Of a DNA stretch of 64,000 bases, positions 5,502 through 46,946 are shown piece by piece (positions within the stretch are counted from its first letter, which is position 1; each line of letters begins with the position of its first letter). Below the pieces are notes generated by a model that was not told the DNA's origin, made no database searches, and saw only the letters and a list, made by a program, of their open reading frames with translations. The position numbers were made by a program, and so were the translations under genes. This DNA comes from Candidatus Zixiibacteriota bacterium (lineage in GTDB: Bacteria; Zixibacteria; MSB-5A5; GN15; JACZUZ01), in NCBI GenBank assembly GCA_024280775.1, contig JAJRPM010000013.1:1-64000 (forward strand), given 5' to 3'.

Positions 5502-6956
5502 TTACTTAACCTCGTTCAGGCCGTACTCTTTTATTTTGTAGAGCAATGAGCGATAGCTGATTTCCAGCAGTTGTGAGGCTTTGCGTCGGTTCCAATTGGT
5601 TTTGGTTAGGGCCGCCCGGATTAGTTGGCTCTCCTCTTTGGCCACAACTTTATCGACACGCGCTTTCAGTGAATATCCGTCGGTTTCAGGATCAAAGGAG
5701 GTCGAGAAATTCTCCACGGCGCTTGTCATAGCTACTCCGTATGAAACGCCATTGGTTTCATATGACGGTTGTGATGCGGTGTTAGGGGAAGTTAGTAGCA
5801 AATCATCCACAATCGATTCATCATTGCGCACCACCATTTGCTTGATGAAATTCTCCAACTGACGCACATTACCGGCCCAGTCAAAGCCCACCAGTTTTCT
5901 CATAGTCTCCGCTGAAATATCCGGCAATGATTTCTTATACATCTTGTTGTATCTATCAACAAAGTGGTTTGCCAATAGGGGAATGTCATTGGGGCGATGA
6001 CGCAGAGGCGGCAAGCCGAGCGTGATTTCATTGAGGCGATAGAACAAATCATCACGAAACTTTTTCTGCGCAATAGCCTCTTCGAGGTTCTTATTAGTAG
6101 CGCTGACGATTCTTACATCAACACGGATATTGCTGACTCCGCCGACACGAACGAATTCCTGCTGTTCAATCGCCTGTAGGAGTTTTGATTGCAATTCCAT
6201 TGGCATATCGCCGATTTCATCAAGAAAGATAGTGCCCTTGTTGGCTATCTCGAAGCGCCCCTGCTTGGTTTTGTGAGCGCCGGTAAATGCGCCTTTTTCA
6301 TAACCGAATAGCTCGGCTTCGAGAAGATCCCGGGGTATCGCGGCACAATTCACTTTTACAAAAGGTTTCTTGGCGCGAGGTGATTTGTTGTGCAGGGTGC
6401 GCGCGGCAATTTCTTTCCCGGTTCCAGATTCACCACGAATCAGGACTGTCAATTCCGAAGGCGCTACCTGGTCAACCAACTCCCTGACTTTCTCCATGCC
6501 CTCGGATTCACCGATGAACATGTTGTATTCACGTGAGGCGCTCAGTTCCTTTTGCAATCCGACAACTTCTTTTTTGAGCTTGCGGCGTTCAATAGTAGAC
6601 TTTAGATGAATGCCCACTTCTTCGATTTCGAAAGGCTTGCGAATAAATTCAGAGGCGCCACGTTTCATCGCCTCAACAACCATTTCGGTTTCGGCGTGAC
6701 CTGAGAGCATCACTACATCAGGACGATTCTCAACTTTTTGCAATTTCTCTAGAACTTCAAGACCGCTCATTCCCGGCATTTTAATATCCAGCAGAATTAT
6801 GTCCGGGGCCTCGGTTGTAACCATTTGAATCCCCTCGATGCCGTCACGAGCAGACTTGAACTCAAAGTCATCAGATAGACCTTTGTTCAACATCCAAGAC
6901 ACGTTCGGATCGTCATCTATAACCAACACTTTCAAATGTTCTGACTTGCGGGGCAT
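5502..6956 (-). CDS. Sigma-54-dependent response regulator, NtrC family
   Basis: Three domains in order: receiver (residues 8-120, phosphoacceptor Asp57 in ILLDIKMPG), AAA+ sigma-54 activation domain (Walker A GESGTGKE near 173, sigma-54-contacting loop GAFTGA near 213, Walker B TIFLDEIGDM), and a Fis-type helix-turn-helix at the C-terminus (NWNRRKASQLLEISYRSLLY). An upstream ATG at 6971 lacks a ribosome site; ATG 6956 has GAGGA 8 nt before it and is preferred (484 residues). The gene lies 230 bp downstream of a soluble histidine kinase that is probably its partner. It should activate sigma-54 promoters, but I found no clear -24/-12 sequence in the window. The regulon is unknown. Confidence 0.93.
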   Translation of the reverse strand: MPRKSEHLKVLVIDDDPNVSWMLNKGLSDDFEFKSARDGIEGIQMVTTEAPDIILLDIKMPGMSGLEVLEKLQKVENRPDVVMLSGHAETEMVVEAMKRGASEFIRKPFEIEEVGIHLKSTIERRKLKKEVVGLQKELSASREYNMFIGESEGMEKVRELVDQVAPSELTVLIRGESGTGKEIAARTLHNKSPRAKKPFVKVNCAAIPRDLLEAELFGYEKGAFTGAHKTKQGRFEIANKGTIFLDEIGDMPMELQSKLLQAIEQQEFVRVGGVSNIRVDVRIVSATNKNLEEAIAQKKFRDDLFYRLNEITLGLPPLRHRPNDIPLLANHFVDRYNKMYKKSLPDISAETMRKLVGFDWAGNVRQLENFIKQMVVRNDESIVDDLLLTSPNTASQPSYETNGVSYGVAMTSAVENFSTSFDPETDGYSLKARVDKVVAKEESQLIRAALTKTNWNRRKASQLLEISYRSLLYKIKEYGLNEVK

Positions 6957-7187
6957 TTCGGTGGTCCTCATTTACAGTCTAAAGGCAGTATCTTTCTAAG
7001 TAAGCGTCAAAACATGTACTATAAAACCTGTGACGCATCTAAGAACTATATCGGCGGCAAAGTGTGAATTATCGAGCGGTTTTACGGCAATTTGATTCAT
7101 ATGTGCAACGATTGCGCGCGAGATTTTGCGCGCTTATTACACAGATTATCTTGGAACCAGGACGATGGATTGCAGGAGCAAACATTG

Positions 7188-9392
7188 TTAGCTGTGGGCG
7201 CTATTATCTTCAATCGGAAAATACATTTTGAATGTGGCTCCTTCACCCTCTATGGAATCAACGGCAATTGTTCCATTGTGAGCCGACATAATGCGCTCTA
7301 CCACCGCCAACCCGAGACCGGTGCCAGTTTCCTTGGTTGTAAAATATCTATCGAACAATTTGGCGAGGTTTTCTTTCTTGATTCCAATACCAGTATCGCT
7401 AATCGATAGCTCTAAATAGTCACTGTTCTTAAAGTCCGGTCTGTCTATTTTGCCAGTGACATTCAGTTCTCCACCGTCCGGCATCGCATCAACAGCATTC
7501 ATCAACAGATTAAGCACAACCTCAAAGACTTGGTTCTTATTGACAATCACTTCCCAGTTCGTATCCGAGAAACTGAGGTTGGTAGTGATTTTGTGTTTCT
7601 CCAAGTCCGGAGCCACTAGCTCAAGCGCCCTCACAACAAGTCGACGCAAGTCGGTTTTCTCTGCTTCGTATTTGTGCGGTTTGGAAAAATCCACCAATTC
7701 ACTAACCAGCTCGTTAAGACGATGTGACTCCTCTTCAATCAGCTTGGTTAATTGCCGACTGTCCTCGCTGGCAGAATCGCCGATTTCCTTGCGCAGGAGA
7801 CCAATCGAGCCTTTGATAGCGGTTAGCGGCTTGCGCAAGTCATGCGAGATTTCAGAAATCATATTTCCCATGGTCAGCAAGCGTGAGGCATTGAGCATGG
7901 CCTTTTCTTTTTCATAAAGCGATGCTGATTGTGACACTACAATATCCGAGAGCGAGCGCTCATGCATATTGTACTTGTCCAAATAACTAGTGCCGAAGCA
8001 GAACAAATATGTAACCGCGCCATCACGAATTACCGGAGCTACCATGAAAGCGTCACTTCTTTCGCACTCCAGACCGATTCGAGGAAGACATTCCAAAATG
8101 TAGTCCTCCAGCTCTCGGCGGTCACTGCTCTCAATTCTCTCTAGCGACACTCCCCGTATCACTGGATCGCTTACTTTTTCATCTCCATAGACAATATTCC
8201 CGGAATCCGAGTATTCCATCTCCTTACCAAAGGCGCCAACCGCTTTCAGAGTCTGAGAGCGATTGTCGTTTTGTAGCCAGATACAATACTCCAGTGGGAT
8301 CAACTTACTAAGTGTTTCAAAAACCAGCTCCAGCATATCTTTCTGGGATGTAACAGATTTCATTTTGTCACTCAACTCATGTAACGCAATGAACTCCGAA
8401 AGCTGACGTGAGATTTCATCAAACTGGCGCGCGTCATTGATGACAACTGCCGCCTGCGATGCGAACATGATTGCCAGCCGCAAATCCGACTCGCTGAAAA
8501 CACCACCGTCTGTTTTTCGCGATAGATTGATTACACCTAGAACTTTGAACCCGACTTTTAGCGGCACACAGATCAATGACGCGTTACCATAACGCGCTCC
8601 GCTCTTGCGCTTGAATCGTGAATCTTCCTCAACATTCTCTATCAGAAGCGGATCACCGGATTGCGCCACAAAGCCGGAAATTGATTCTCCGACCGGTTGA
8701 CGCACATCGTGCACAATTTGCGCCTCTAGCCCCTGAGCCGCGGCGATTGTCAAGTATTTGCCAGACTGGTCTATCAGCATCACAGAACCAACAGTGGCAT
8801 GCGTAACTTTTGCAGATAATGACAGAATCTTCTCTAACAATGCGCGAGTGTCAGATGTTGAGGACAGGGATACACTAGCGTCATATAGCGCGTTGATTTC
8901 CTCAAACCTATTGGAGAGCTGACGGTTTGACTCTTCCAACGTTTCCAACAGATTGCGACGGCTCGACTCTAGATACTGCCTTTCCTGAGCTCGTTTCAAC
9001 GCCGATTGCAAATGATCAATACTCACCGGCTTAATCAGGTAGTCAGAGGCGCCCATATTGAGCGCTTCAATCGCTGTCTCTACTGTCGCATGACCAGTGA
9101 ACAGGATAACACAAATATTCTCATCCTCCTCACGCGCTTTGCGCAACACATCAAGACCATCGACACCAGGCATTTTCAAGTCGGTGAGAATCACATCCCA
9201 GCGGCCGTTCTTGATTTCACGACAAGCAATCGCTGAGTCCTGGTGCGCAACCACATCGTAGCCTTCGGCTGTTAATATCTGCTGAACAGATTCCAAAACC
9301 GAGCTATCATCATCAATCAGTAGCACACGTTCTAGAGTAGAGTCTTTGCGACCGTTATGTAATTTGTCTATTGGCATAGTTCTATTGAACAT
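7188..9392 (-). CDS. Soluble hybrid: receiver - GAF - histidine kinase
   Basis: About 734 residues with an unusual order. An N-terminal receiver domain (VLLIDDDSSVLESVQQIL; Asp in VILTDLKMPGVDG) is followed by a short coiled coil, a clear GAF domain (SVMLIDQSGKYLTIAAAQGL) and a second, less clear GAF-like stretch. Then come HisKA (phospho-His in MISEISHDLRKPLTA) and HATPase with GTGLGLAVVERIM. No membrane segment or signal peptide is seen, so it senses a cytoplasmic signal or receives phosphate from another kinase. The start is uncertain: TTG at 9446 or ATG at 9392; neither has a good ribosome site, and the receiver domain is intact either way. It precedes the NtrC-type regulator and follows folC by about 210 bp. 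Confidence 0.88.
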   Translation of the reverse strand: MFNRTMPIDKLHNGRKDSTLERVLLIDDDSSVLESVQQILTAEGYDVVAHQDSAIACREIKNGRWDVILTDLKMPGVDGLDVLRKAREEDENICVILFTGHATVETAIEALNMGASDYLIKPVSIDHLQSALKRAQERQYLESSRRNLLETLEESNRQLSNRFEEINALYDASVSLSSTSDTRALLEKILSLSAKVTHATVGSVMLIDQSGKYLTIAAAQGLEAQIVHDVRQPVGESISGFVAQSGDPLLIENVEEDSRFKRKSGARYGNASLICVPLKVGFKVLGVINLSRKTDGGVFSESDLRLAIMFASQAAVVINDARQFDEISRQLSEFIALHELSDKMKSVTSQKDMLELVFETLSKLIPLEYCIWLQNDNRSQTLKAVGAFGKEMEYSDSGNIVYGDEKVSDPVIRGVSLERIESSDRRELEDYILECLPRIGLECERSDAFMVAPVIRDGAVTYLFCFGTSYLDKYNMHERSLSDIVVSQSASLYEKEKAMLNASRLLTMGNMISEISHDLRKPLTAIKGSIGLLRKEIGDSASEDSRQLTKLIEEESHRLNELVSELVDFSKPHKYEAEKTDLRRLVVRALELVAPDLEKHKITTNLSFSDTNWEVIVNKNQVFEVVLNLLMNAVDAMPDGGELNVTGKIDRPDFKNSDYLELSISDTGIGIKKENLAKLFDRYFTTKETGTGLGLAVVERIMSAHNGTIAVDSIEGEGATFKMYFPIEDNSAHS

Positions 9393-9509
9393 AGTGTATT
9401 GGCGTAGTATTCTGTTTATGTGTGATGCTACGAGTTCTTCAGTCAATCTGTCAAGTTATCGGCTGAAATACCCACATCCACATAGCCGCATAGCCACAAT
9501 AGAGAACAA

Positions 9510-9604: not shown

Positions 9605-10849
9605 TTAGATAGAGTCTTGTTTAGCCAGGAATTCGCCTACAAGATAGTGGGAGCCAACTACAATAACTAAGTCACCTCTGCCAGTATTTCTAATTGCGCG
9701 ACGAAATGCCGCCAGGGGTGTCTTGTTCATTCGGATTACCGGCTTTGCCTGCTGACTAAAACGCTTCGCTAAGTCAGCAAGTTCAATCGGGTCAGCCGAG
9801 CGACGTGTGCTTATCGCTGTCACTGTCAATGACTCTGCGATAAGAGTCAGCTTGCGCAACGCATGGGAATGATCTTTTTGCTTCACTAGACCTACCACAA
9901 TATGCGCTTTCCGTCCGGGGAATCTCTGTTGGAATGTGTTGACGAAAGCGTCGATTCCGGTTTGATTGTGTGCGACATCAAGAATGACAGTCGCCCCAGT
10001 AGATACCTTAGTGATTTGGAATCTGCCTTGCCAGTGGATCTTGGCTAACCCGGTTTTGATATTCTCCGGGGAAACTGCATAGCGCTTCTTCTGCAAGTGT
10101 GACACTACAGTCAACGCCAAACGCAGGTTTTCCTGCTGATGGTCTCCCTGTAGTCCCAACGAAGAAGAAAACTTCTGGCAATGGCGACTCGACACTAAAG
10201 GCAGGACTCTTGCCGACTGTGATTCTGCAATTTTGCGGAGCTCTCCTTCCGCTGAACTTGGCATCACTCCCAGAGCTACCGGAACTGATGGCTTTATGAT
10301 GCCACCTTTTTCTTTGGCGATTGCCTGCAACGTGCCGCCCAAAATACGCGTGTGGTCCAAACTGATTTCTGTTATGGCGCAAACCAACGGTGAGAGAATG
10401 TTGGTGGCGTCCAATCTGCCGCCAAGTCCGGTTTCCATTATTGCAATCTCTACCTGTCTTTCGGCAAAATAACTCAACGCCAATGACACCATCACTTCAA
10501 AATAGGTAATCTTGCGCGCGTTAATATCTGGCTTGTGGTTCTCAATAAACTTCGCAACAAACTGCTTGCTGATTTTTCGTCCGTTGATTGTGATTCGTTC
10601 GCGAAAATCCACTAGATGCGGCGATGTGAAAACCCCGGTTTTGTATCCCGCTTGCATCAGGACAGAACCTAACATCTTCACAGTTGAGCCTTTGCCATTA
10701 GTGCCGGCAAAATGAACAGTCGAAAATAAGTCCTGCGGATTGCCAAGGTGTTCAACGAATTCACGGACATTATCCAGTCCGAGTTTCATTCCGAAGAATT
10801 CACGCGACTTGATAAAGCGTGTGGCTGATTTGTAACGCTGTTCAATCAC
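9605..10849 (-). CDS. folC: Bifunctional folylpolyglutamate synthase / dihydrofolate synthase
   Basis: A 414-residue Mur-ligase-superfamily enzyme that adds glutamate to dihydropteroate and to reduced folates, in folate biosynthesis. The ATP-binding P-loop FAGTNGKGSTVKML lies at about residues 47-60. The family motifs YFEVMVSLALSYFAE and METGLGGRLDATN follow, and the C-terminal ligase domain starts near ILDVAHNQTGIDAF. The start is GTG at 10849. It is the last gene of the serS-porX-tsaE-accD run, about 75 bp after accD; accD-folC adjacency is a common bacterial arrangement. Confidence 0.95.
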   Translation of the reverse strand: MIEQRYKSATRFIKSREFFGMKLGLDNVREFVEHLGNPQDLFSTVHFAGTNGKGSTVKMLGSVLMQAGYKTGVFTSPHLVDFRERITINGRKISKQFVAKFIENHKPDINARKITYFEVMVSLALSYFAERQVEIAIMETGLGGRLDATNILSPLVCAITEISLDHTRILGGTLQAIAKEKGGIIKPSVPVALGVMPSSAEGELRKIAESQSARVLPLVSSRHCQKFSSSLGLQGDHQQENLRLALTVVSHLQKKRYAVSPENIKTGLAKIHWQGRFQITKVSTGATVILDVAHNQTGIDAFVNTFQQRFPGRKAHIVVGLVKQKDHSHALRKLTLIAESLTVTAISTRRSADPIELADLAKRFSQQAKPVIRMNKTPLAAFRRAIRNTGRGDLVIVVGSHYLVGEFLAKQDSI

Positions 10850-10924: not shown

Positions 10925-11821
10925 TTAGGCTACTGAGGATGAGGCGCCAGGAGTATTCGGGTCACCTGCTCTCTTAGAGACATTGTCGGTGAAGTAACGC
11001 AGAAAAAGTGAAATCGTATGACGCAGGCTCTTGCGATCAACAACTTTATCGAGAAAGCCTCTTTCAAGGAAAAACTCCGAAGACTGGAACCCCTCCGGCA
11101 GGTCCTGTCCAATTGTTTGGCGAATCACTCTCGGTCCGGCGAAACCCAATAGCGCTCCTGGTTCAGCAATGATTACATCGCCCAGTGACGCATAGGACGC
11201 CATCACTCCCGCGGTGGTAGGATTTGTCAAAACAGAAATATACGGCAAGCCTTGTTCTGCAAGTTTGGCCAGCAGCGCCGAGGTCTTAGCCATTTGCATC
11301 AGAGACAGAATCCCCTCTTGCATTCGAGCGCCGCCTGAGCAAGAAACAATCACTATCGGAAGACTGTTGTCCATCGCGCGCTCAATAGCCCGTGCAATTT
11401 TTTCACCTACAACTGAGCCCATCGAGCCACCAATAAATGAGAAATCCATAATGACAAAGGAAATCGGCAGTTTATCGATTGCGCCCAAACCGGATATGAT
11501 CGCGTCATTGCGCCCGGTTTTTTGCTGAGCGGCTTTTACTCTATCGGGGTAGCGTTTGGAGTCTTTGAACTCCAACGGGTCACAGCTAACTAAGTTCTGG
11601 TCGAATTCTTCGAGCTTGCCATCATCGAGCATCAGGCTAATATATTTCTTGCTTGAAATGCGAAAATGATAATCACAATTCGGACAAACCCAAAACGTCT
11701 CTTCAAGAGTCTTGGTGTAGATAATCTCCGAGCACGACTTGCACTTGGTCCATAGACCGTCGGGAATATCCTTTTTGGGCTGGCTCACCAGACCGGGTTT
11801 TGATTTCTTAAACCATTCCAT
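10925..11821 (-). CDS. accD: Acetyl-CoA carboxylase carboxyltransferase subunit beta
   Basis: 298 residues. With AccA it forms the carboxyltransferase that moves CO2 from biotin carboxyl carrier protein to acetyl-CoA, the first step of fatty-acid synthesis. The N-terminal four-cysteine zinc ribbon is intact (CKSC at about 27-30, CPNC at about 46-49). The crotonase-like core shows FIGGSMGSVVGEKI, SCSGGARMQEG and GFAGPRVIRQTIG. ATG start. accA is not in this window, as is usual in bacteria that encode the two subunits apart. It sits 48 bp downstream of rimI. Confidence 0.96.
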   Translation of the reverse strand: MEWFKKSKPGLVSQPKKDIPDGLWTKCKSCSEIIYTKTLEETFWVCPNCDYHFRISSKKYISLMLDDGKLEEFDQNLVSCDPLEFKDSKRYPDRVKAAQQKTGRNDAIISGLGAIDKLPISFVIMDFSFIGGSMGSVVGEKIARAIERAMDNSLPIVIVSCSGGARMQEGILSLMQMAKTSALLAKLAEQGLPYISVLTNPTTAGVMASYASLGDVIIAEPGALLGFAGPRVIRQTIGQDLPEGFQSSEFFLERGFLDKVVDRKSLRHTISLFLRYFTDNVSKRAGDPNTPGASSSVA

Positions 11822-11869: not shown

Positions 11870-12340
11870 CTAGTCACCAACCTGCAATTCTCTTACATAT
11901 ACAATTGCATCCTCGCTCGGCTTAGAATAATAGCTTTTCCGGCGATACAATTCATTAAATCCATTTTTTTCATACAGCAATTGCGCTCCGGAGCTGGACT
12001 CACGGACTTCCAAAAACACCGCGGCGCTGCCCGATTCACGAGCTTCTGCAAAGATAGCGTCAAGAAGCCGCTTGGCAACCCCTTTCCGGCGATATCCTTC
12101 AGCCACTGCAATATTGGTCAAATGAGTCTCCCCGGCGACGCTGTAATAGCAGGCATAAGCAATAATCTCTTCCGAGACGTCAGACTCTTCTTCAGGAACC
12201 GCTTCTACCACATATCCGCCACCGTTTTCGTAGTCCAAAGTGTCTTCAAAGGCGATTCTCGTCCAAGGATCAGGAAATATCTCCTTCTCGAACTCCACCA
12301 CAGCCGGAATATCGGCCTCTTGCATTTTTCTAATTTGCAT
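11870..12340 (-). CDS. rimI: Ribosomal protein S18-alanine N-acetyltransferase
   Basis: A 156-residue GNAT acetyltransferase. The acetyl-CoA binding motif A reads LTNIAVAEGYRRKGVAKRLL (about 75-95), preceded by an EIFPDPWT-type N-terminus typical of RimI. It acetylates the N-terminal alanine of ribosomal protein S18. It lies directly after tsaB, the usual tsaE-tsaB-rimI grouping, which separates it from other GNATs. ATG start. Confidence 0.9.
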   Translation of the reverse strand: MQIRKMQEADIPAVVEFEKEIFPDPWTRIAFEDTLDYENGGGYVVEAVPEEESDVSEEIIAYACYYSVAGETHLTNIAVAEGYRRKGVAKRLLDAIFAEARESGSAAVFLEVRESSSGAQLLYEKNGFNELYRRKSYYSKPSEDAIVYVRELQVGD

Positions 12341-12363: not shown

Positions 12364-13047
12364 CTAGGACTTCCTAGCTTCCAGCGCGCGAATTTCCGCT
12401 CCCGAACGTTGAATATAGAGCGGTTCCAATTCAGTCCATGGGGTCAATGCTCCACTTTGATATTTCTCTGCGGCGGCTTGGAATAGTGACTCTAATCTGA
12501 AGTTAATTGATTGCGCTTTGGTGGCATTGATAGTTTTGCCTTCCAGGACAGGAATATCGCAATCGATGAAACCCATTGACTCTTGTGATTCGGCCAAATC
12601 CTCTATGGTAACTACATCAACCTGCGCTTCTTCTGCACTCGAAACGCGAAAGCGGTAGTAAGTGTTGGCTTTCATCAATACCAATAACGCCTCGGGAATC
12701 GGTTCCTTTGCCTCTCTTAACTGATGTAGCGCCTGCTCAAATCGTGACACTCCCACCAATGGGATATCACAAGCGCCGACAATGCCCTTGGCGAATGACA
12801 GCCCGACGCGCAGACCAGTGAATGAACCCGGACCGAGCGCAACAATCACACCCTCAATATCTGCAAAAGTCAATTCAAGCTCGCGCATCAATTCCTCAGT
12901 CAACACCGCGCAATTCCTGGTTCGAGACTCAGCGCGATTGGCGCTCTTGCTATGAACTTTCCCGGCGAGGCTCACTGCTACTACTATTGTGTCACCTGCG
13001 GTATCTAGCGCAATAAAGTTGTCTATAGTGTGATTCTTTGAATTCAA
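12364..13047 (-). CDS. tsaB: tRNA threonylcarbamoyladenosine biosynthesis protein TsaB
   Basis: An ASKHA-fold partner of TsaD and TsaE in making t6A37 in ANN-decoding tRNAs. The family block ALGPGSFTGLRVGLSFAKGI is intact near residues 75-95, and FIALDTAGDTIVV opens the fold. The frame extends to a TTG at 13068, but TTG 13047 is preferred: it overlaps the tsaE stop as TTGA and has AAGAAGG 7 nt upstream, giving 227 residues. That is a clear case of translational coupling. Confidence 0.92.
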   Translation of the reverse strand: MNSKNHTIDNFIALDTAGDTIVVAVSLAGKVHSKSANRAESRTRNCAVLTEELMRELELTFADIEGVIVALGPGSFTGLRVGLSFAKGIVGACDIPLVGVSRFEQALHQLREAKEPIPEALLVLMKANTYYRFRVSSAEEAQVDVVTIEDLAESQESMGFIDCDIPVLEGKTINATKAQSINFRLESLFQAAAEKYQSGALTPWTELEPLYIQRSGAEIRALEARKS

Positions 13048-13520
13048 ACCGCAGACCTTCTTATACAAAATTCTCTATTGGAGCCCTCGGCGCGAATGTC
13101 AATCCACACAAACTGCCCCTGAATCAATTCTTCCTGTAGGAGCGGCTTGATATTCTCCGGCCACTCAATCAGGATAACCGCCTCGCGCTCCAGATAGTCT
13201 TCCCAACCGATTTGCAGTATCTCTTCGGGTTTGGCAATTCGATAGCAATCAAAATGTAGTACTTCCACATCGCCCTGATATTCATGGGCAATAGAAAAAG
13301 TGGGAGAACGCACATCATCAGGGTTTACCCCCAAACCGCTGGCAATGCCGCGGCAAAGCACAGTTTTGCCTGCGCCCAGGTCGCCTGCGATACACACAAT
13401 ATCACCGGCAGAAAGTCCTTGTGCAAGACTTGCGCCCAACGCAATAGTTTCTTCTGCCGAAGCGCTAGTAAATCTCTCGCTCTTGGTTTCTTTGGGAGCG
13501 CTCATCACTGAACCCGTCAC
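13044..13520 (-). CDS. tsaE: tRNA threonylcarbamoyladenosine biosynthesis ATPase TsaE
   Basis: A 158-residue P-loop ATPase of the t6A pathway. Walker A is GDLGAGKTVLCRGIA (about 45-59), followed by the family motif RSPTFSIAHEY and HFDCYRI. The GTG at 13520 shares one base with the porX stop (TAGTG); an internal ATG at 13505 is an alternative. From memory, porX is next to tsaE in many Bacteroidetes, so this pairing looks ancient rather than accidental. Confidence 0.94.
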   Translation of the reverse strand: MTGSVMSAPKETKSERFTSASAEETIALGASLAQGLSAGDIVCIAGDLGAGKTVLCRGIASGLGVNPDDVRSPTFSIAHEYQGDVEVLHFDCYRIAKPEEILQIGWEDYLEREAVILIEWPENIKPLLQEELIQGQFVWIDIRAEGSNREFCIRRSAV

Positions 13521-15136
13521 TACCGCGGTCTCAATACAGACAATGGAATAATCATCTCTTCGAGTGACAGCCCACCATGTTGGAATGAATTCTGGAATTG
13601 ACGCACATGCTCGTTGTACCTATTCGGGTATACAAAATAGTAATCCTCTTTGGCAATTATATAGGTTGTAGCCAAACGCGGCTTAGGCAAACGGTATTCT
13701 TCAGGTTTACGAATGATGATTCCCTGCTTGGGATCGCAATTGAGATTGACACCATGCTTATAGCGCAATGTTGTCGAAGTGTCTCGTTTACCATGCGCTA
13801 ACGCTCCTCGGTGGCATAGTTTTGAACCATGATCGGTGGTGATAATTACCGTATGACCATGCGAGGCAAAATCTTTCAGCGCTTTGAACAATGTGCTATG
13901 AGTAAACCAACTGAGTGTGATTGAACGAAAAGCGCTCTCATTGCCGGCGATTTCTTTGAGTATCATATTGTTGGAACGACCGTGCGACATAATATCCAGA
14001 AAGTTCACTACTATAGTAGAGAACTTGCGCGGATAGAAGTCTGAAATCTTGCGATACAGAGTATCCATTTCAGCGTTATTGAAAACTTTGGCGTACTTGA
14101 TTCCTGATTTCGGAACAGCGTCACGTTCCTTCAGCGCCGCGTTTATCATTTCTTCCTCAAAACGATTCAGCGAACCGGCGTCCTCAACGCTCCAAATATC
14201 AGGATAGCGCTCGTTGATTTCATCGGGAAACAACCCAGAAAACAACGCATTGCGCGCATAGGGAGTTGCAGTTGGCAATAGAGAGTAGAAATGTTTGCGC
14301 TCAATATCGAAATATTCAGAGAGCAGAGGCTCCAACGCCACCCACTGGTCGAGACGCATACAGTCGATAACCACAAACACCAGTTTCTCCGAGTTCGTTA
14401 GCTCGGGCATCACTGTGTGATCAATAACATCCGGCGGCAACAAAGGACGAGTCCCCTCCTGATAGGGAGTTTTCATCCAATCGACATAGTTCTTCTCTAC
14501 ATACTTGGTAAATTCAATGTTCCACTCGGTATGCGTTCCGGCATGTGTGTGCCATAGTCCTGTATCCGGGAATTCGGAAAGCTCGATATCCCATTCGGAG
14601 AGTATCGAAGCCGCGTCAAACCAATCCTCAGGTGTAACCGGGCCATATAATTTTTGGTTGAACCGATTGATATCGGCGATATAACGCTTTCCTAGCGCGT
14701 CAGAGCGTATCTTGCGTGAATCCAAAATCCGTTTGATAGCCATCAGCGCCTGTGAAGGATTGAGGGGCTTGGTTAAGTAGTCATCAATCTTTTGCCCGAT
14801 AGCCTCTTCCATCAAAGACTCTTCCTCGGATTTTGTCACCATGATAACCGGAAGATGCGGACTAATTACCTTGAGCTCTTCAAGAGTGGTCAGCCCATCC
14901 ATCCCGGGCATCATCTCATCAAGGAGCGCTAATTCAAAACGCTCACTACGCACCAATTTGATCGCCTCTTCGCCCGAAGAACAACATGTGACGGAATAGC
15001 CCTTGCCTTCAAGAAATAGAATATGCGGTTTGAGTGTGACAATTTCATCGTCAATCCACAGAAGTTTCTTGGGCGAAGCCGCCTTTTCTGTTTTGGGATT
15101 GGGCGCTTGTTTGGATTTATCTTTAGGTGCGTTCAT
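13520..15136 (-). CDS. porX: PorX-type response regulator with PglZ phosphatase domain (T9SS regulator)
   Basis: 538 residues: a receiver domain (about 23-140, phosphoacceptor Asp73 in LLDEMMPGMDG), a helical linker, then an alkaline-phosphatase-superfamily PglZ domain. In the latter, KLVFVVIDCMRLDQW supplies a metal-binding Asp (Asp258), LLPTATPYARNALFSG the likely Thr nucleophile (289 or 291), and TTDHGS further metal ligands. This matches PorX of Porphyromonas gingivalis, which with PorY controls type IX secretion and hydrolyses oligonucleotide or nucleotide substrates. The gene is between the PorY-like kinase (42 bp upstream) and tsaE (1-bp overlap). Which promoters or sigma factor it acts through cannot be seen here. 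Confidence 0.93.
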   Translation of the reverse strand: MNAPKDKSKQAPNPKTEKAASPKKLLWIDDEIVTLKPHILFLEGKGYSVTCCSSGEEAIKLVRSERFELALLDEMMPGMDGLTTLEELKVISPHLPVIMVTKSEEESLMEEAIGQKIDDYLTKPLNPSQALMAIKRILDSRKIRSDALGKRYIADINRFNQKLYGPVTPEDWFDAASILSEWDIELSEFPDTGLWHTHAGTHTEWNIEFTKYVEKNYVDWMKTPYQEGTRPLLPPDVIDHTVMPELTNSEKLVFVVIDCMRLDQWVALEPLLSEYFDIERKHFYSLLPTATPYARNALFSGLFPDEINERYPDIWSVEDAGSLNRFEEEMINAALKERDAVPKSGIKYAKVFNNAEMDTLYRKISDFYPRKFSTIVVNFLDIMSHGRSNNMILKEIAGNESAFRSITLSWFTHSTLFKALKDFASHGHTVIITTDHGSKLCHRGALAHGKRDTSTTLRYKHGVNLNCDPKQGIIIRKPEEYRLPKPRLATTYIIAKEDYYFVYPNRYNEHVRQFQNSFQHGGLSLEEMIIPLSVLRPR

Positions 15137-15178
15137 AGTTCGTCGCTTGTGATCTTATTTTGCTAGAATTGTTAAGAG

Positions 15179-16489
15179 CTATGCTTGCTCTTTAGATGCG
15201 CTCTTTTTTGAAGAAACACCGGCGATGGGAATACTTATACAAAAAACTGTTTCGCCAGGGGCGCTTCTTAACAGCGCAAGTTTGCCACCGTGATACTCTT
15301 CAATAATCCGCCGCGCCAAAGTTAGCCCCAGCCCCCAGCCGCGTTTCTTTGAACTGAAACCGGCGCGAAATATTCTGCGTTGCACACCAAGCGGAATACC
15401 TCGTCCGTTGTCTGCAACTTCCAATCGCGCCCAGCGCCCATCCGATGAAACACGGCTACTTAACTCTATCAAACCGCTGGCAGAATCCACTGCGTCAAGC
15501 GCATTCCGTATGAGATTCTCCACAGTCCAACCGAACAATTCGGGGTTCATCATTGCTTTGTCTACCCCGCCAGCGTCAAATGACACTTTGGCTCCTGCAT
15601 TACCGAAGGCCAGTCGCTGCTGAAAGTATTCTACCGTTTCGCAGACGCTTTGGTCGAATTCACATTCGGCTAATTGCGGGGCGCTACCGATTTTTCCGAA
15701 ACGATTGGCAACTTTCTTAAGGCGCTCTACATCAGCGCTCATAGAATCCAACGCCAGCGGCAATGAAACACCGTCATCCGCACCAGCAGCGCTGTGTAGC
15801 TCAGGTGAATTGGCGCACTTTTCTTTCAATAATTCCAACCAACCCATCAGAGCCGAAATAGGAGTGCCAAGCTGATGCGCAGTTTCTTTGGCCATCCCCA
15901 CCCAGATGTGACGCTCATCTGATTTCTTGATATTGGTAAAGCCAACTATCCCAATAGAAAGAACCGAGATGACCATCGCTATTTGTATATAGGGCGCGAT
16001 TTTCAGGTTCTCAACCAGATGCGAGTCACCATAGTAAAAATAATTGATTCCTATGCCACTGAAGGTAAGCGAATCGGAGCTATCACCGAACACGATTTCG
16101 ATTTCTCCATGCTCCCGCCTCATCTTCTCCATCAGTTCTACTATTTTCTCGATATCCTCCGGGCTCCTGTCGGTGTCAGCCACGCCGGGAATGTTGCGCC
16201 AGAAGTTTGGCTCGCGCTCCGCTGAGGCGACAATTATTGGAAAGTTGGCGCGAGAAATGATTTCATCAAAAATCAATTGAGTCTCGGCGCTGGGAGTGGA
16301 GGGGTCAACAGCTTTCACCCACAAACGCACAAACGAAGCAACTTTCTCCTGCGCTTCGTCCTGCAATTGCCTGATAACATCATAGGTGTACCACATAAAC
16401 ACAAACGAGACAATCACCACAGCAGTCAGCAAAAACAGCTTGAACACTGTCGAACCGGCAATATGGATTTTCACACGAGAGTCTTGCAC
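15179..16489 (-). CDS. Membrane sensor histidine kinase, PorY-like
   Basis: 436 residues: transmembrane helix about 14-34, a periplasmic domain of about 130 residues rich in acidic helices, a second helix about 166-186, then a kinase core without an obvious HAMP domain. The H-box reads WVGMAKETAHQLGTPISA (His205), a variant I associate with Bacteroidetes kinases including PorY, in which 'AHQLGTP' replaces 'SHELRTP'. The ATPase domain has NLIRNALDAVD and GWGLGLTLARRII. GTG start, weak ribosome site. Its place directly before porX makes it the natural phosphodonor for PorX. The name porY is withheld because the sensory domain could not be compared. Confidence 0.85.
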   Translation of the reverse strand: MQDSRVKIHIAGSTVFKLFLLTAVVIVSFVFMWYTYDVIRQLQDEAQEKVASFVRLWVKAVDPSTPSAETQLIFDEIISRANFPIIVASAEREPNFWRNIPGVADTDRSPEDIEKIVELMEKMRREHGEIEIVFGDSSDSLTFSGIGINYFYYGDSHLVENLKIAPYIQIAMVISVLSIGIVGFTNIKKSDERHIWVGMAKETAHQLGTPISALMGWLELLKEKCANSPELHSAAGADDGVSLPLALDSMSADVERLKKVANRFGKIGSAPQLAECEFDQSVCETVEYFQQRLAFGNAGAKVSFDAGGVDKAMMNPELFGWTVENLIRNALDAVDSASGLIELSSRVSSDGRWARLEVADNGRGIPLGVQRRIFRAGFSSKKRGWGLGLTLARRIIEEYHGGKLALLRSAPGETVFCISIPIAGVSSKKSASKEQA

Positions 16490-16551: not shown

Positions 16552-17814
16552 CTAACCGATTTGAATCATGCCACCCATATAAGGCTGAAGGGCTTTCGGA
16601 ATGTTGATTTTCCCGTCGGCGGTTTGGTAGTTCTCCATGATTGCCGGTATCAAACGAGCCAGCGCCAAGCCGCTACCGTTGAGAGTATGCACAAACTGGG
16701 GCTTGCCTTTGGTCTCACGGAAACGCGTGTTCATTCGTCGCGCCTGAAAATCCTCGAAATTCGAAATCGAAGAAATCTCCAGCCAATTGGCGACTCCCGC
16801 CGACCAAAGCTCTAAGTCATAGGTCTTGCTGGCGGCGAATGACAAATCGCCGGTAGCCAGCAATAGAACCCGGTAGGGAATCTCAAGAGCCTGAAGAACT
16901 TTTTCAGCCTGACCGACTAACACTTCAAGTTCATCATACGACGAATCCGGATGGACTAATTTTACCATTTCTACTTTGTCGAATTGATGAACGCGAATCA
17001 TTCCCCTGGTGTCTTTTCCGGCGGCGCCAGCTTCCCTGCGGAAACATGGCGTGTATGCGGCATAAGAAACCGGCAATGTGTCACTAGCTAGAATCTCCTC
17101 GCGATGCAGATTTGTCACCGGGACTTCGCCGGTTGGAATCAACCAAAGGTCGTCTTTGTCGATGTGATACATATCATCGGCAAGTTTCGGAAGTTGACCG
17201 GTGCCGGTCATTGATGCGCTGTTCACTACAAACGGTGGCGCGATTTCGGTGAAACCATCCGATGCATGAATATCCAGCATGAATGAAATCAGCGCGCGTT
17301 GCAGACGAGCCCCGGCCCCTTTTAGCACATAGAAACCTGAGCCGCTGATTTTTGCTCCGGCAGTCAAATCCAATACTCCAAGTGACTCACCGATTTCCCA
17401 ATGCGGTTTAACTTCGAACTCAGGCTTTGTCACCTTGCCCCACTCGCGAACCACTTGATTGGCGCTTTCGTCACCAACAGGAACCGATTCATGAGGAATA
17501 TTCGGAGCCTTTAATAAAAGCCCGGAAAGCTCCTCATCGATTTCCCGTAACTTATCGTCAAGACCGGAGATACTTTCACCAACCTCGCGCATGCGTTCAA
17601 AAATATCCTCTACCGGTTCGCCAGCCTTCTTACGCTTCGGGATTTCTGCGGAAACCGCATTACGCTCTGACTTTAGTTCATCGGCTTCGGCAATGATAGC
17701 GCGCCTTTGCGAATCAAGCTCTAGAATAGAATCGACATCTACCGGATCACGTTTCAAGGTAGAGGCCTCTTTGACCATTTCGGGATTTTCACGCACTAAT
17801 CGAATATCTAACAC
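16552..17814 (-). CDS. serS: Serine--tRNA ligase
   Basis: A class II synthetase for tRNA-Ser and tRNA-Sec. The N-terminal half is the antiparallel coiled coil that grips the tRNA long variable arm (about 25-100). Motif 2 is [20 protein letters not shown] and motif 3 [18 protein letters not shown]. The frame extends upstream to a TTG at 17862, but the protein start typical of the family ([13 protein letters not shown]) begins at a GTG at 17814, giving 420 residues; this start is preferred. It heads the gene run serS-porY-like-porX-tsaE-tsaB-rimI-accD-folC, with 62 bp before the kinase gene. Confidence 0.95.
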
Positions 17815-18211
17815 AATAATTCTCGCTAAGTTACCAATTGACGGGTCTTGTTTTCTGTTCAACTATTCGGGGTTCCTGCCCCATAACAACTCGGAAAATC
17901 GCATAAGCGGACGTCGAAATCAATAGACTTTAAGAAACGCTTACATCCGCACGCCTCAGCTGACATCCAGCCTATCTTATAGTAACATTTTCGCCCCTAT
18001 CTTCCTAACAAACACAAATGGGAAACCGCTATTCGGTCAAAGAGGGAATCTCTAGAGTAGACTTGGAGCGCTTCATCAGAAATAGTAAGTGACAATATAT
18101 CCCCGCGGCAGGGGCCGCACAGATGTTAATCTGCTACGACACAATCACTTATGCCTGAATTGCCACAAGGCCCAAAACTTGAGACCTAAGCCACAATTGC
18201 TGTTTTAGGAC
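17815..18211. other. Divergent serS/rpmB intergenic region
   Basis: No gene, tRNA or repeat family recognised. On the minus strand a TATAAG box near 17976-17981 could belong to a serS promoter, but no acceptable -35 is present at 16-18 bp. The rpmB promoter lies just beyond, at 18212-18239. Confidence 0.4.
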
Positions 18212-37303: not shown

Positions 37304-39715
37304 ATGAAGACGCGTGACCAGATCCCGGGCAGGGTGAAGGCAACCTCAAAGAAGACATACCCGACCCCAAAACGGGGACGGATTATCCTTGCAATCTTCG
37401 CAATGCTATTTGGCGTATTTTTTCATAACTCGGCTTTTGCGATAGATAAAGCGCTTAGAATCGGATTCGACAATACCAAGTTGTCCGCAGATCAGGCGAA
37501 TTCTGCGTTTTTGTATGACGGATACTCGCCGCTAGTCCTCCCATCGGGATTGCAACTGGCGGTTCAAATAGTCAAAGTGCCGTTGATTACTGCTGGTGAA
37601 ACTCCCACAATCGATTTTACTTTCGAGCGCGGGGAATTGCTTGGCGTAGTGAGTCCCGAGTCTTTCGCCAGAGTCGACATTCCGACAGCGGATGACGGAC
37701 GTTACGACAACATCAGGCCGGCGCTCGCGGAACTATTCGAGAATGGATTCGAAGGCGCTCTGCTCAATAATATCCAATCCACATCCAACGGAGCAGTAGC
37801 ACAGCTAACCCTATCACCATATCAAATAGACAGCCTCGGCAATGTATATTCCCTGACGGCTATCACCGTAAAAGTCAGCTCAGCAACAGCTGTGGAAATC
37901 GGCGAGCCGCAATTCGGACCGCAAACTACGGGACCATCACTATCCTCCGGAGCGCTATTGGGTTCATCAGCAACAACTGTGAACTATCTGATAATCACCA
38001 ACAAAACTCTAGAACCACAAATGAAGAGATTGGCCGATTACAAAAACGCCACCGGTATTCCAACTAGAGTTGAGCTAATTGAAGATATCCTGGCAGTGTA
38101 CACCGGCGTTGACAATGCCGAGGCGCTACGCAACTCTTTGAAAGACTACTACGCCGAGGGCGTGACACATGTCATGCTCGCCGGTGATGAAAACGTGGTC
38201 CCTATTCGGTACACATACTATTACAACACCAGTACCATGCCGCTGGTGGAAAATATGATGGTCACCGATTTGTATTTCGCCGACCTGACCGGAGATTGGG
38301 ACACCGACGGCGATGGAATCTGGGGCGAACCGACTCAGGATACACCGGACCTGACTGCCGAATTACATATCGGCCGCCTGCCAATTAGTCGTGTAGAACA
38401 AGCGAAAAACTATGTTGACAAATTGATTGTATACGAAACTGACCCAGGACTTGGCGATCCGTCATACTTGCGCAATACCGTTATCTATTCATCAGACCAA
38501 ATGCGCGATTTCTCCAACGGTGGACAGCATGCAATCATCGCCAATGCCATGCCGGACTATTATTTCATTGACACATCAAGAACAATCGAAATGCCCTCCG
38601 GCAGTTCCAGTTTTCCAGTCAATGACAATGCCTCAGGAACTATCTCAACCCTCGATGAAGGGTTTGGTGTCGTTAACATAATTGCGCACGGACGTCACGA
38701 CGGCTTCGCAGTGCGCTCTGCAAACTACAACGATTGGCCCAAGTCATATTTGTTGAGTGTCGATGGTGTCGGGTCGCATGGCTCACTAGACCAACTTGCC
38801 CCTAATGGAAAGCTAGGACTATATGTGGCGCTGTCATGTGACTTGGGCGGCTTCGATATGGATGCGCCGCCTTTTGCCGCTACTACTCCCTCATTTGTTG
38901 AGAGCGCTGTTTCAACTGAGATGTCCGGCGCGGTGGGAATGGTCGGCTATTCACGTTGGGGATGGGTGTATTCGAGCTACCGCCTGCATGAATCATTCTT
39001 GAAACACCTATATAGTGACGCCGATGGTGACGCCATCGCCGCAATGAACTTTGCCTCAGTTGAGTTTCCATACTATCGCGATCTAATCTACGGTCAAAAC
39101 TATTACGGCGACCCGACTGTCAACATCCATTTGGATATCCCAAAGGACGTGTCACTAACTGTATCCTCAGAGAATTGGCACGAGAATTCGATTGTGGCTA
39201 ACGTAGCATCTGGTGGAGTAGCAGTAGCCGAGGCAAAAGTATTTCTCTCTGCCGCCGGAGTTGTCTTAGCGGAAGCTACAACTGACGGCTCAGGCAATGC
39301 CCAACTACAATATTCATTTGATTTGGGAACCGATTACACTATTGCAACACATCCAACCGGAGCGCTGGTAGGCATGGCGGCATTCACACCGCAAATCGCC
39401 GCCGGAATCGATGACGAGGATGAGAGCGCCCTGCCGCAGTCATTCTCATTGAAACAAAACTATCCAAATCCATTCAATCCAACCACAACAATCGAATGGA
39501 ACCTGCCACGCAGTTCGCAGGTAAGTTACCGGGTAATCGACGTGCTGGGGCGTACCGTAACACAGGATGACCTCGGCCGCCTATCGGCAGGGCGTCACAC
39601 TCTGGAATGGAATGCCCGAAACAATCAAGGCTCCCCAGTAGCCAGCGGCGTCTATTTCTTCCAGCTATTGACAGAAGACAATGTAGCGTCAAGAAAGATG
39701 ACATTGTTGAAGTAG
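37304..39715 (+). CDS. Gingipain-family (C25) cysteine protease with T9SS-type C-terminal tail
   Basis: 803 residues. A long basic N-terminus leads to a signal sequence (IILAIFAMLFGVFFHNSAFA, about 27-46), then a gingipain-type propeptide (about 47-225). The C25 catalytic region starts at NYLIITNKTLEPQMKRLADY. The catalytic pair is visible: His462 in IIAHGRHDGF and Cys512 in VALSCDLGGFD. An Asp-rich DLTGDWDTDGDGIW loop suggests calcium binding. A beta-sandwich follows, then the sorting tail NYPNPFNPTTTIEWNLPRS with GVYFFQLL near the end, typical of FCB surface proteins. It is most likely an exported protease cargo of type IX secretion. The sortase PorU is also C25 but longer. It is a plus-strand single unit with a strong ribosome site. 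Confidence 0.9.
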   Translation: MKTRDQIPGRVKATSKKTYPTPKRGRIILAIFAMLFGVFFHNSAFAIDKALRIGFDNTKLSADQANSAFLYDGYSPLVLPSGLQLAVQIVKVPLITAGETPTIDFTFERGELLGVVSPESFARVDIPTADDGRYDNIRPALAELFENGFEGALLNNIQSTSNGAVAQLTLSPYQIDSLGNVYSLTAITVKVSSATAVEIGEPQFGPQTTGPSLSSGALLGSSATTVNYLIITNKTLEPQMKRLADYKNATGIPTRVELIEDILAVYTGVDNAEALRNSLKDYYAEGVTHVMLAGDENVVPIRYTYYYNTSTMPLVENMMVTDLYFADLTGDWDTDGDGIWGEPTQDTPDLTAELHIGRLPISRVEQAKNYVDKLIVYETDPGLGDPSYLRNTVIYSSDQMRDFSNGGQHAIIANAMPDYYFIDTSRTIEMPSGSSSFPVNDNASGTISTLDEGFGVVNIIAHGRHDGFAVRSANYNDWPKSYLLSVDGVGSHGSLDQLAPNGKLGLYVALSCDLGGFDMDAPPFAATTPSFVESAVSTEMSGAVGMVGYSRWGWVYSSYRLHESFLKHLYSDADGDAIAAMNFASVEFPYYRDLIYGQNYYGDPTVNIHLDIPKDVSLTVSSENWHENSIVANVASGGVAVAEAKVFLSAAGVVLAEATTDGSGNAQLQYSFDLGTDYTIATHPTGALVGMAAFTPQIAAGIDDEDESALPQSFSLKQNYPNPFNPTTTIEWNLPRSSQVSYRVIDVLGRTVTQDDLGRLSAGRHTLEWNARNNQGSPVASGVYFFQLLTEDNVASRKMTLLK

Positions 39716-44675: not shown

Positions 44676-46946
44676 CTAGTTATTGCGAATCAATAGAACT
44701 TTTCCGACTCCGCTCTCTCCAGCGTCATCAGCAAGAACAAACAAATACACACCCGAGGCCACATCGACGCCAGATTGGTTTCTTCCGTCCCATCCTACAT
44801 TACTCTGCCCAACCCAAACCAGCTCACCAATTTCTGTGAAGACACGCAATTCGGCCACACCGGAAAAATTGAATCGCAGGCGTTCGGTTCCGAAAGAAAT
44901 GACAAATGGATTTGGGAATGCGGTTACGGTATTGATTTCAAAATTGGCCTGACCCAAGTCGGCGCGAAACCTGGAAAGTCCGGCGTCAGTAGCTATCCAA
45001 AGATAGTTGTTCCGAGAATCAAACTCCAACGCTCTCACATTATCTGACACCAACCCTGAGTTCAATTGCGTGAACGTCTCAAAAGTATTCATTGCCCGAT
45101 CAAAGCGCCCCACACCAGTAGGCGTTGCAATCCAAACATTATCAAGCGGATCAAAAGCGACATCCCGAACTTCCGGGCCCAAATCAAGTGGTAATGTCAC
45201 TGGAACAAAGCGCTCAAACCCGGCGTCAAATCGCGCCAGCCCAAATCTATGCGCCACCCATGTGTCACCATGCGTGTCAATGCGCACTTTGTTTACATTA
45301 TCCGAAGGCAGTCGGAAACGAAAGTTGCTGGCGCCCTCGAAGTAGTGGGTCACTTGATAATCTGAAAGATCAAAAGGATCAGGCCCGGTGCGTACAAAAT
45401 ACACCCCCAGATTCTCAGAAGAAACAACCAGCGTTCCCTGTGCAACATCAACCGAGGTAATGAACTCATCATTTACACCTTGCGCCACACCAAATGAAAT
45501 CCAGCGAGAGGGATCTAGCTGATCAACAATCGCAACCGGATTAAAATCAAACGCTCGAAAGTTTGCCATATAGGTGTAACGTGAGTCAGATGCCATATCA
45601 GGGATAACTACAAAATTGTTATTGCCGCCATCGGTGTTGCCCTTCAGGCTGGAATTCAGGCTATCGTATTTTGTTTCACTGCCGGAAGTGACACGCCAGG
45701 CCCCGGCGCCAAATGTCCCCAACCAGAGCGCTCCAAGACTATCGGCTGATAGTGATATCGCAGTTCCGGTTGGGCTTTGCAATACTGACAGCCATGATCC
45801 ATTTCTCAAGCGCGCGAAGCCATCACGACCCAGCGCCACTATGACCTCACCTAATGGACTGACTGTTACAGCGCTTACATCAGAACCGGGAATCGTCGCA
45901 GTTTCCACTTCGCTAAATCCAGAGCCTGAACTTGCAAAAATGCCCGAGGATTTCAAACCAAGAAATCGTTTTCCCGATACACTCACCCCCGAAGTAACCA
46001 ACCTGTTGGGCAGTCCGGCAGTTGAGAGCAGTGTGACATTAGCGCCATCATAGAGATACTCGCCCCGACTGGTATAAATATGCAACTCCTGTGCAGGGGC
46101 ATTGGCAATCGAATCTACTATCAAACGGAACACTTCAGTTGATGCAGGCAAACCCAAAGCTGTAATTGAAGTGTCAATTGGCGAATAGCTGAGAACATAG
46201 GCCCCGTCTGAGGTTCCCACAATAGTTTCCCCAACATAGGACGCAAGTGATGTAGGACGCAGGTTAGTCAGACCACTGACATTGGCGCTTGAGAATGTCG
46301 TCCAATTTGCAAAAGATTTTAACTGAATCGGATTACGCCTGTCCGCAACGGCGAACCCGTCTTGTGTAGCAACCCACACACTATCAACTGTGACCATCAC
46401 ATCCACAACAGCCGCGCCATCAGAAAATAAACCAAAGCGCTGATAACTATCCTGAATCTGTCCGCCATCGACTGACTTCGAAAATAAAGTCAACCCAAAG
46501 TCAGCTCCTATCCACAATTGCTCATTATCATTATCATCAGCAATTGCATTTAGTCGTATCAATTCATTATTGACTGTCAAGAAGGGGAAGGGAGTGAACT
46601 GCGTCGAACCGAGTGAGCGTTTCAACAACCAGCCTTGTGAAGTAATCCACGCCGTTGCGCTTTGGTCAACGATAATTCTCGTGAGATCATTGCTCAATAG
46701 ACCATCAGCATTAGTGACAACATTCGCACCAAGGTCAATCGCATCAATAATCACCAATCCACCATTAGTTGCCACCCACACGCTACCGTCAACAATCGTC
46801 ACGTCACGAGCTTCATCCGTCGAAGCAAACGTTTTCCAATCATTAAGATTCATGCCATAGGCCCCGCTGTATGACACCAAGAGTAATACAGCTTGCGCAA
46901 TAACACTTCTAATAATAATGCTTTTATGAATGACTTTATTCAGCAT
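44676..46946 (-). CDS. PorZ-like two-propeller surface protein (probable T9SS component)
   Basis: 756 residues. A signal peptide ends near residue 31 (SVIAQAVLLLVSYSGAYG). Propeller-type repeats of the two-component regulator class follow, e.g. DVTIVDGSVWVATNGGLVII, SADSLGALWLGTFGAGAWRV and FDPLDNVWIATPTGVGRFD, enough for about two seven-blade propellers. The final 85 residues are a sorting-tail-like domain (TVTAFPNPFVISFGTERLRF, ending GVYLFVLADDAGESG). The order propeller-propeller-C-terminal domain and the opening 'W-x-F...VWVATNGGL' are those of PorZ, the anchor-complex protein that presents A-LPS to sortase PorU. No kinase or regulator domain is attached. It could alternatively be a cargo with a ligand-binding propeller. 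It is followed 18 bp later by the FemAB-like gene. Confidence 0.75.
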   Translation of the reverse strand: MLNKVIHKSIIIRSVIAQAVLLLVSYSGAYGMNLNDWKTFASTDEARDVTIVDGSVWVATNGGLVIIDAIDLGANVVTNADGLLSNDLTRIIVDQSATAWITSQGWLLKRSLGSTQFTPFPFLTVNNELIRLNAIADDNDNEQLWIGADFGLTLFSKSVDGGQIQDSYQRFGLFSDGAAVVDVMVTVDSVWVATQDGFAVADRRNPIQLKSFANWTTFSSANVSGLTNLRPTSLASYVGETIVGTSDGAYVLSYSPIDTSITALGLPASTEVFRLIVDSIANAPAQELHIYTSRGEYLYDGANVTLLSTAGLPNRLVTSGVSVSGKRFLGLKSSGIFASSGSGFSEVETATIPGSDVSAVTVSPLGEVIVALGRDGFARLRNGSWLSVLQSPTGTAISLSADSLGALWLGTFGAGAWRVTSGSETKYDSLNSSLKGNTDGGNNNFVVIPDMASDSRYTYMANFRAFDFNPVAIVDQLDPSRWISFGVAQGVNDEFITSVDVAQGTLVVSSENLGVYFVRTGPDPFDLSDYQVTHYFEGASNFRFRLPSDNVNKVRIDTHGDTWVAHRFGLARFDAGFERFVPVTLPLDLGPEVRDVAFDPLDNVWIATPTGVGRFDRAMNTFETFTQLNSGLVSDNVRALEFDSRNNYLWIATDAGLSRFRADLGQANFEINTVTAFPNPFVISFGTERLRFNFSGVAELRVFTEIGELVWVGQSNVGWDGRNQSGVDVASGVYLFVLADDAGESGVGKVLLIRNN

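Follow-up and report, generated by a model that had tools for sequence, protein, structure and literature searches.

The 64,000-nt stretch of DNA analysed here, referred to as the window, comes from a Candidatus Zixiibacteriota bacterium (assembly GCA_024280775.1, contig JAJRPM010000013.1, positions 1 to 64,000) and carries on its minus strand a gene for a membrane histidine kinase, followed by porX, which encodes a response regulator of the type IX secretion system (T9SS) family. The genes are arranged in the order serS, kinase gene, porX, tsaE, tsaB, a rimI-like gene, accD and folC, with 62 nt between serS and the kinase gene (Table 1). A preliminary description of the window had placed the kinase gene 42 bp before porX and had reported a one-base overlap of porX with tsaE. 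Both details hold: the gap is 42 nt long, and base 13520 is common to porX and tsaE (...cggtaGtgacg...), provided that tsaE begins at its GTG codon. No terminator-like site was found in the gap by a pattern scan, and scanning for promoters and terminators yielded no useful result. The comparisons described below indicate that the kinase gene is very probably porY, that together with porX it very probably encodes a single PorXY two-component system, and that serS-porY-porX-tsaE is probably the ancestral linked order of this system.

Table 1 Features of the window discussed in the text (aa, amino acids)
Feature	Position	Strand	Basis
porY, membrane histidine kinase, 436 aa, GTG start	15179..16489	-	HATPase_c, HisKA, reciprocal best hit, tree
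First predicted transmembrane segment (aa 14-32) of PorY	16394..16450	-	hydropathy mean 2.41 over 19 aa
Second predicted transmembrane segment (aa 164-182) of PorY	15944..16000	-	hydropathy mean 2.13
Phospho-acceptor His205 codon of PorY, H-box AKETAHQLGTP	15875..15877	-	sequence; ETAHQLGTP invariant in 32 rows of alignment A1
porY-porX gap, 42 nt	15137..15178	.	open reading frame coordinates
porX, receiver-linker-PglZ response regulator, 538 aa	13520..15136	-	NF052313, Pfam, 7pv7 match
Phospho-acceptor Asp73 codon of PorX	14918..14920	-	D in 60/61 aligned PorX rows
serS, 62 nt before porY, in conserved block	16552..17862	-	Pfam, synteny
tsaE, GTG start	13044..13520	-	TIGR00150 104 bits, PF02367
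tsaB, in conserved block	12364..13068	-	PF00814, synteny
rimI-like acetyltransferase gene, in conserved block	11870..12340	-	PF00583, synteny
accD, in conserved block	10925..11821	-	open reading frame, sequence inspection, synteny
folC, in conserved block	9605..10849	-	open reading frame, sequence inspection, synteny
C25 (gingipain-type) peptidase, C-terminal T9SS type A sorting domain	37304-39715	+	TIGR04183 32.3 bits, cut-off 23; PF18962
Protein with C-terminal part like T9SS PorZ, two-component-regulator propeller repeat	44676-46946	-	112 bits to the PorZ model (cut-off 260 not reached)

The PorX protein of the window matched the equivalog model NF052313 (T9SS_RR_PorX) with 631.6 bits (cut-off 300) over model positions 2-513 of 513, and the structure of Porphyromonas gingivalis PorX (7pv7) with an E-value of 1e-130. 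Its Response_reg and PglZ domains were recognized by Pfam, and the phosphorylatable D73, the nucleophile T291 and the zinc ligands D258, D381, H385, D435, H436 and H520 are all present. Asp73 is the position that the preliminary description had named as the phospho-acceptor, and the alignment bears this out (Table 1). Across 63 aligned PorX rows, neither the nucleophile Thr291 nor any of five zinc ligands varies, and the sixth zinc ligand, Asp258, is invariant in all 62 rows that reach its position. The conservation of the alpha-1 interface of PorX was unremarkable (mean 0.67 vs 0.62 for the remaining receiver domain). An in-frame TAA codon, due either to an assembly error or to gene decay, splits porX in a congener of the window organism (locus L110, G074:C13), and one TAA codon also occurs in the porX matches of each of two other genomes (G058, G059).

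The kinase contains a HATPase_c domain (7e-17) and a HisKA domain (3e-4), the latter with a score of 21.2, short of the Pfam cut-off of 26.9. The H-box quoted in the preliminary description is present, as are the N, G1 and G2 boxes, and about 130 aa between the two predicted transmembrane segments presumably form a periplasmic sensor. The PorY protein of Porphyromonas gulae (L222) was used as the reference, the P. gulae PorX being 99% identical to P. gingivalis PorX. This kinase has 395 aa, and 395 codons correspond to the 1185 nt quoted for P. gingivalis porY; the four published P. gingivalis porY primers, with a span of 26-526 in the paper, have 0-1 mismatch to L222 and fall on its nt 25/26, 161-178 and 510-527, and Ser241 and Ser266, the sites mutated in published suppressors, are present (PMC8050853, PMC4800418, PMC7712824).

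When the window genome was searched with P. gulae PorY, the window kinase scored 183.5 bits and the runner-up kinase 66.1 bits; the reverse search of P. gulae with the window kinase gave L222 PorY as the sole match. A second PorY, which the preliminary description had considered as a possible objection, was not found in the window genome, where the window kinase matched itself with 968 bits and the next match had 46 bits. A maximum likelihood tree was built from 59 PorY-like kinases and 20 others; it separated the two groups at 94/91, and the PorY-like kinases had one origin in 92% of the bootstrap trees. The window kinase was placed among those of its own phylum and P. gulae PorY inside a Bacteroidota clade. 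The long branches of several outgroup kinases make the reciprocal hits no less important than the tree. Judged by sequence, the window kinase is a PorY orthologue, as the preliminary description had supposed. The window kinase and P. gulae PorY are only 30% identical over the full length and 14% in the sensor domain, which might also be expected if a different Bacteroidota-type histidine kinase preceded porX by chance. The reciprocal best hits with a margin of about 117 bits, the tree, the lack of another PorY in the genome and the invariant ETAHQLGTP motif make such a coincidence hardly credible. Membership of another kinase family was rejected on the basis of the tree, the reciprocal hits and the search of the genome, which gave no better PorY match elsewhere. 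In 123 of 125 readable PorY matches, the phospho-accepting histidine is followed by Gln (HQLGTP), as it also is in a few unrelated kinases of the window genome; many HisKA kinases have Glu or Asp at this position.

Among 132 genomes sampled from the window's phylum, PorX exceeded the cut-off in 118 (a tally of 132/132 includes plain receiver domains), and the kinase was found in 120, including 77 of the 78 genomes of good quality. The order serS-porY-porX-tsaE-tsaB-rimI-accD-folC is nearly constant in 80 loci of the phylum, and serS is located directly before porY in 66 loci of the phylum. Where the upstream sequence was readable, porY adjoins porX in 78 of 79 loci. The automated score was 77/79; locus L110 was added as linked, its split porX frame having hidden it. 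The sole real exception is a genome (G107) in which serS-porY and porX are on separate contigs (L120, L328). Linkage in 78 of 79 loci means that the arrangement is not due to chance.

The sample outside the phylum consisted of 'same domain' genomes, nearly all of different families and apparently about one per phylum; 36 of them had PorX, and the search for PorY among those without PorX covered 44. PorY was present in 34 of the 36 genomes with PorX (in G369 and G351 as fragments) vs 1 of the 44 without it. Its score was at least 230 bits in nearly all PorX-containing genomes, and the ceiling for other kinases was about 134 bits. In 17 of 35 porX loci outside the phylum, porY directly precedes porX, with serS also before porY in 8; the complete window-like order from serS to folC was found in two genomes (G402, G413). 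Elsewhere, porY and porX are separated by 5.5 to about 110 kb or fall on different contigs.

PorX and the kinase were present in exactly the same 155 of the 198 Bacteroidota genomes sampled. Among named Bacteroidota, the sequence upstream of porX was readable in 75 loci, and porY adjoined porX in none of them. For the Bacteroidota genomes with both positions listed (n = 145), the two genes were on different contigs in 104 and on the same contig in 41, none closer than 9.7 kb. In 46 of 70 loci from Bacteroidota, porX does not have porY as a neighbour but still has tsaE. Five Bacteroidota genomes (L325, L326; G323, G229, G299) have porY on the strand that carries porX, at 9.7-11.2 kb downstream of it, which may or may not be a remnant of linkage.

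The suggestion in the preliminary description that the linkage may be ancestral is supported by this survey. On the PorX tree, the linked or unlinked state requires 5 changes; a single clade of 24 rows, all unlinked, comprises all 12 Bacteroidota rows and 12 others, and the linked rows are spread over the rest. The median PorX identity between highly diverged lineages having an identical gene order is 40%. Broken loci have kept either serS-porY without porX (G107, G405, G423) or porX-tsaE without porY (Bacteroidota, G389, G398, G418). Because diverged lineages share the order and broken loci keep either half, adjacent porY and porX probably represent the original layout, which was later broken toward Bacteroidota; this is the simplest reading of the sequence data. 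The porY gene would then have moved off from porX in the line of Bacteroidota and its PorX sister lineages, with porX often retaining tsaE. It is far more likely that this order was broken repeatedly than that it was assembled independently in different lineages. It might be argued instead that the linkage is secondary, i.e. that the genes of an unlinked, P. gingivalis-like ancestor were brought together once or several times or that the block spread by horizontal transfer, as the PorX tree is unrooted and its deep branches are weak (Shimodaira-Hasegawa-like approximate likelihood ratio test values of 84-94). However, linked rows are scattered on the tree whereas the all-unlinked clade holding Bacteroidota is a single group, the multi-gene order is common to lineages so divergent in PorX, and unlinked genomes retain one or the other half of the block. 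A secondary origin therefore appears improbable.

Adjacency alone is weak proof that PorY and PorX work as a pair because tsaE, tsaB, rimI, accD and folC, which are unrelated housekeeping genes, are equally firmly attached across the window's phylum. The claim of the preliminary description that the linkage supports the pairing thus stands only in part: the adjacency is recurrent but says little by itself. The place of porY beside porX could even be a passenger effect of the housekeeping cluster from serS to folC, uninformative on function. The linkage of porX to tsaE is as conserved as that of porY to porX and outlives it in Bacteroidota, and we know of no functional tie between TsaE and PorX. 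Nevertheless, PorX and PorY are found together also in genomes that have the two genes unlinked, and the P. gingivalis proteins bind each other and exchange phosphate (PMC4800418), which makes a mere passenger effect unlikely. The pairing of PorY with PorX is accordingly argued here from the orthology to the P. gingivalis pair and from the co-occurrence in genomes where the genes are unlinked.

Besides the equally conserved porX-tsaE linkage and the weak, unrooted PorX tree, several observations weigh against an ancient and functional PorXY pair. Two genomes with PorX have no PorY (G383, whose PorX is divergent, and G499), PorX of Aquiflexum lacus (L109) is present without a PorY match, and one genome (G399) has PorY and Sov without PorX. 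The P-values of the phyletic distribution, 4.8e-19 and 1.5e-44, treat genomes as independent and are consequently too small. The 43 Bacteroidota genomes without both genes may be one or a few clades, those listed all being 2.0-2.8 Mb in size. Since the sensor domain is so little conserved between the window kinase and P. gulae PorY, the signals may also differ.

The orthology of both proteins, the intact catalytic residues, the single copy, the conserved linkage and the co-occurrence with Sov were computed here, and phosphotransfer, phosphodiesterase output and secretion control are transferred from the work on P. gingivalis and Flavobacterium johnsoniae. By analogy with these bacteria, PorY would sense a signal via its periplasmic domain and autophosphorylate His205, from which the phosphate would pass to Asp73 of PorX. 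Phosphorylation may alter the assembly state of PorX and, in this way, the phosphodiesterase output of its zinc-dependent PglZ domain, by which a Sov-type (T9SS-like) secretion pathway would be tuned.

A Sov/SprA homologue was found in the window genome (G000:C4; TIGR04189, 538 bits, cut-off 200). Sov exceeded this cut-off in 18/18 genomes of the window's phylum, in 31/34 other genomes with PorX and in 0/27 genomes without PorX. The window also encodes a C25 peptidase with a sorting domain and a PorZ-like protein (Table 1); the peptidase is related to the PorU model but scores far below it. The possibility that the window genome has PorXY without T9SS was rejected, as both Sov and sorting-domain cargo are present. 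One genome (G447) has PorXY without Sov, and one Bacteroidota genome (G406) has PorXY and GldM without a Sov match. Within the window, a receiver-GAF-histidine kinase (7188-9446, minus strand) and a sigma-54 response regulator (5502-6971, minus strand) come after folC, and kinase-like matches after folC are recurrent in many genomes of the phylum.

The single model used for PorM/GldM (TIGR03517), which can miss diverged proteins, had no match in the window genome, in 17 others of its phylum or in 33 PorX-containing genomes outside this phylum and Bacteroidota; its matches were confined to the three Bacteroidota genomes included, and the system of the other genomes is possibly T9SS-like but motor-free. 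An earlier survey listed a class of Bacteroidetes that has PorX, PorY and Sov and lacks PorK, PorL, PorM and PorN (PMC7323717), and T9SS genes have been suggested in several other phyla of the Fibrobacteres-Chlorobi-Bacteroidetes group (PMC11285876). A tentative idea, which we hold to be possible rather than probable, is that PorXY and Sov form an older regulatory and export core extending over dozens of lineages, which the PorL-PorM rotary motor joined only in Bacteroidota. If so, PorX would have acquired its binding to PorL/GldL (PMC5005315, PMC10951265) later, and its original output would have been a different one, e.g. that of the PglZ phosphodiesterase via a nucleotide signal.

The PorXY two-component system is already known. 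In P. gingivalis, porX and porY have been described as unlinked 'orphans' that are not in one operon (PMC4800418, PMC11320123, PMC10951265), just as the preliminary description stated. Its further statement that their pairing had to be shown biochemically needs correction, since co-occurrence of porX and porY with T9SS genes was reported earlier by comparative genomics, according to the passage of PMC10951265 that cites this work. P. gingivalis becomes avirulent on porX deletion but not on porY deletion, and candidates other than PorY have been put forward as the PorX kinase (PMC11320123). The pairing is still questioned in the field, and both proteins are treated as orphans. The probably ancient linkage and the near-perfect co-occurrence, as read from the genomes, argue for PorY as the original PorX kinase. 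The literature searched yielded no report of linked porY and porX genes, which is not proof of its absence. The PorXY versions of uncultured lineages, being encoded together, are a convenient pair for biochemistry, and the widespread occurrence of PorXY with Sov sets them apart from the motor, which was found in this sample only in Bacteroidota.

Among known systems, PglZ of BREX (NF033449, BREX-3) has the same PglZ phosphatase fold (window PorX, 91 bits, below the cut-off of 250) but, unlike PorX, no paired receiver domain and partner kinase. PorX of F. johnsoniae (8ted, 8p6f) resembles the window protein in its receiver-linker-PglZ architecture and in the conserved zinc ligands and nucleophile Thr; in that organism, however, phosphorylated PorX binds the motor subunit GldL (PMC10951265), whose partner GldM was not detected in the window genome with TIGR03517. 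A further comparison is with PorXY of P. gingivalis (PGN_1019/PGN_2001). The window pair differs from it in that the genes are adjacent rather than far apart, the sensor domain is highly diverged, PorX is 40% identical and the genome has no match to the one PorM/GldM model (TIGR03517), whereas the two systems are alike in being an orthologous pair with the same domain architecture and catalytic residues, accompanied by Sov in the genome.

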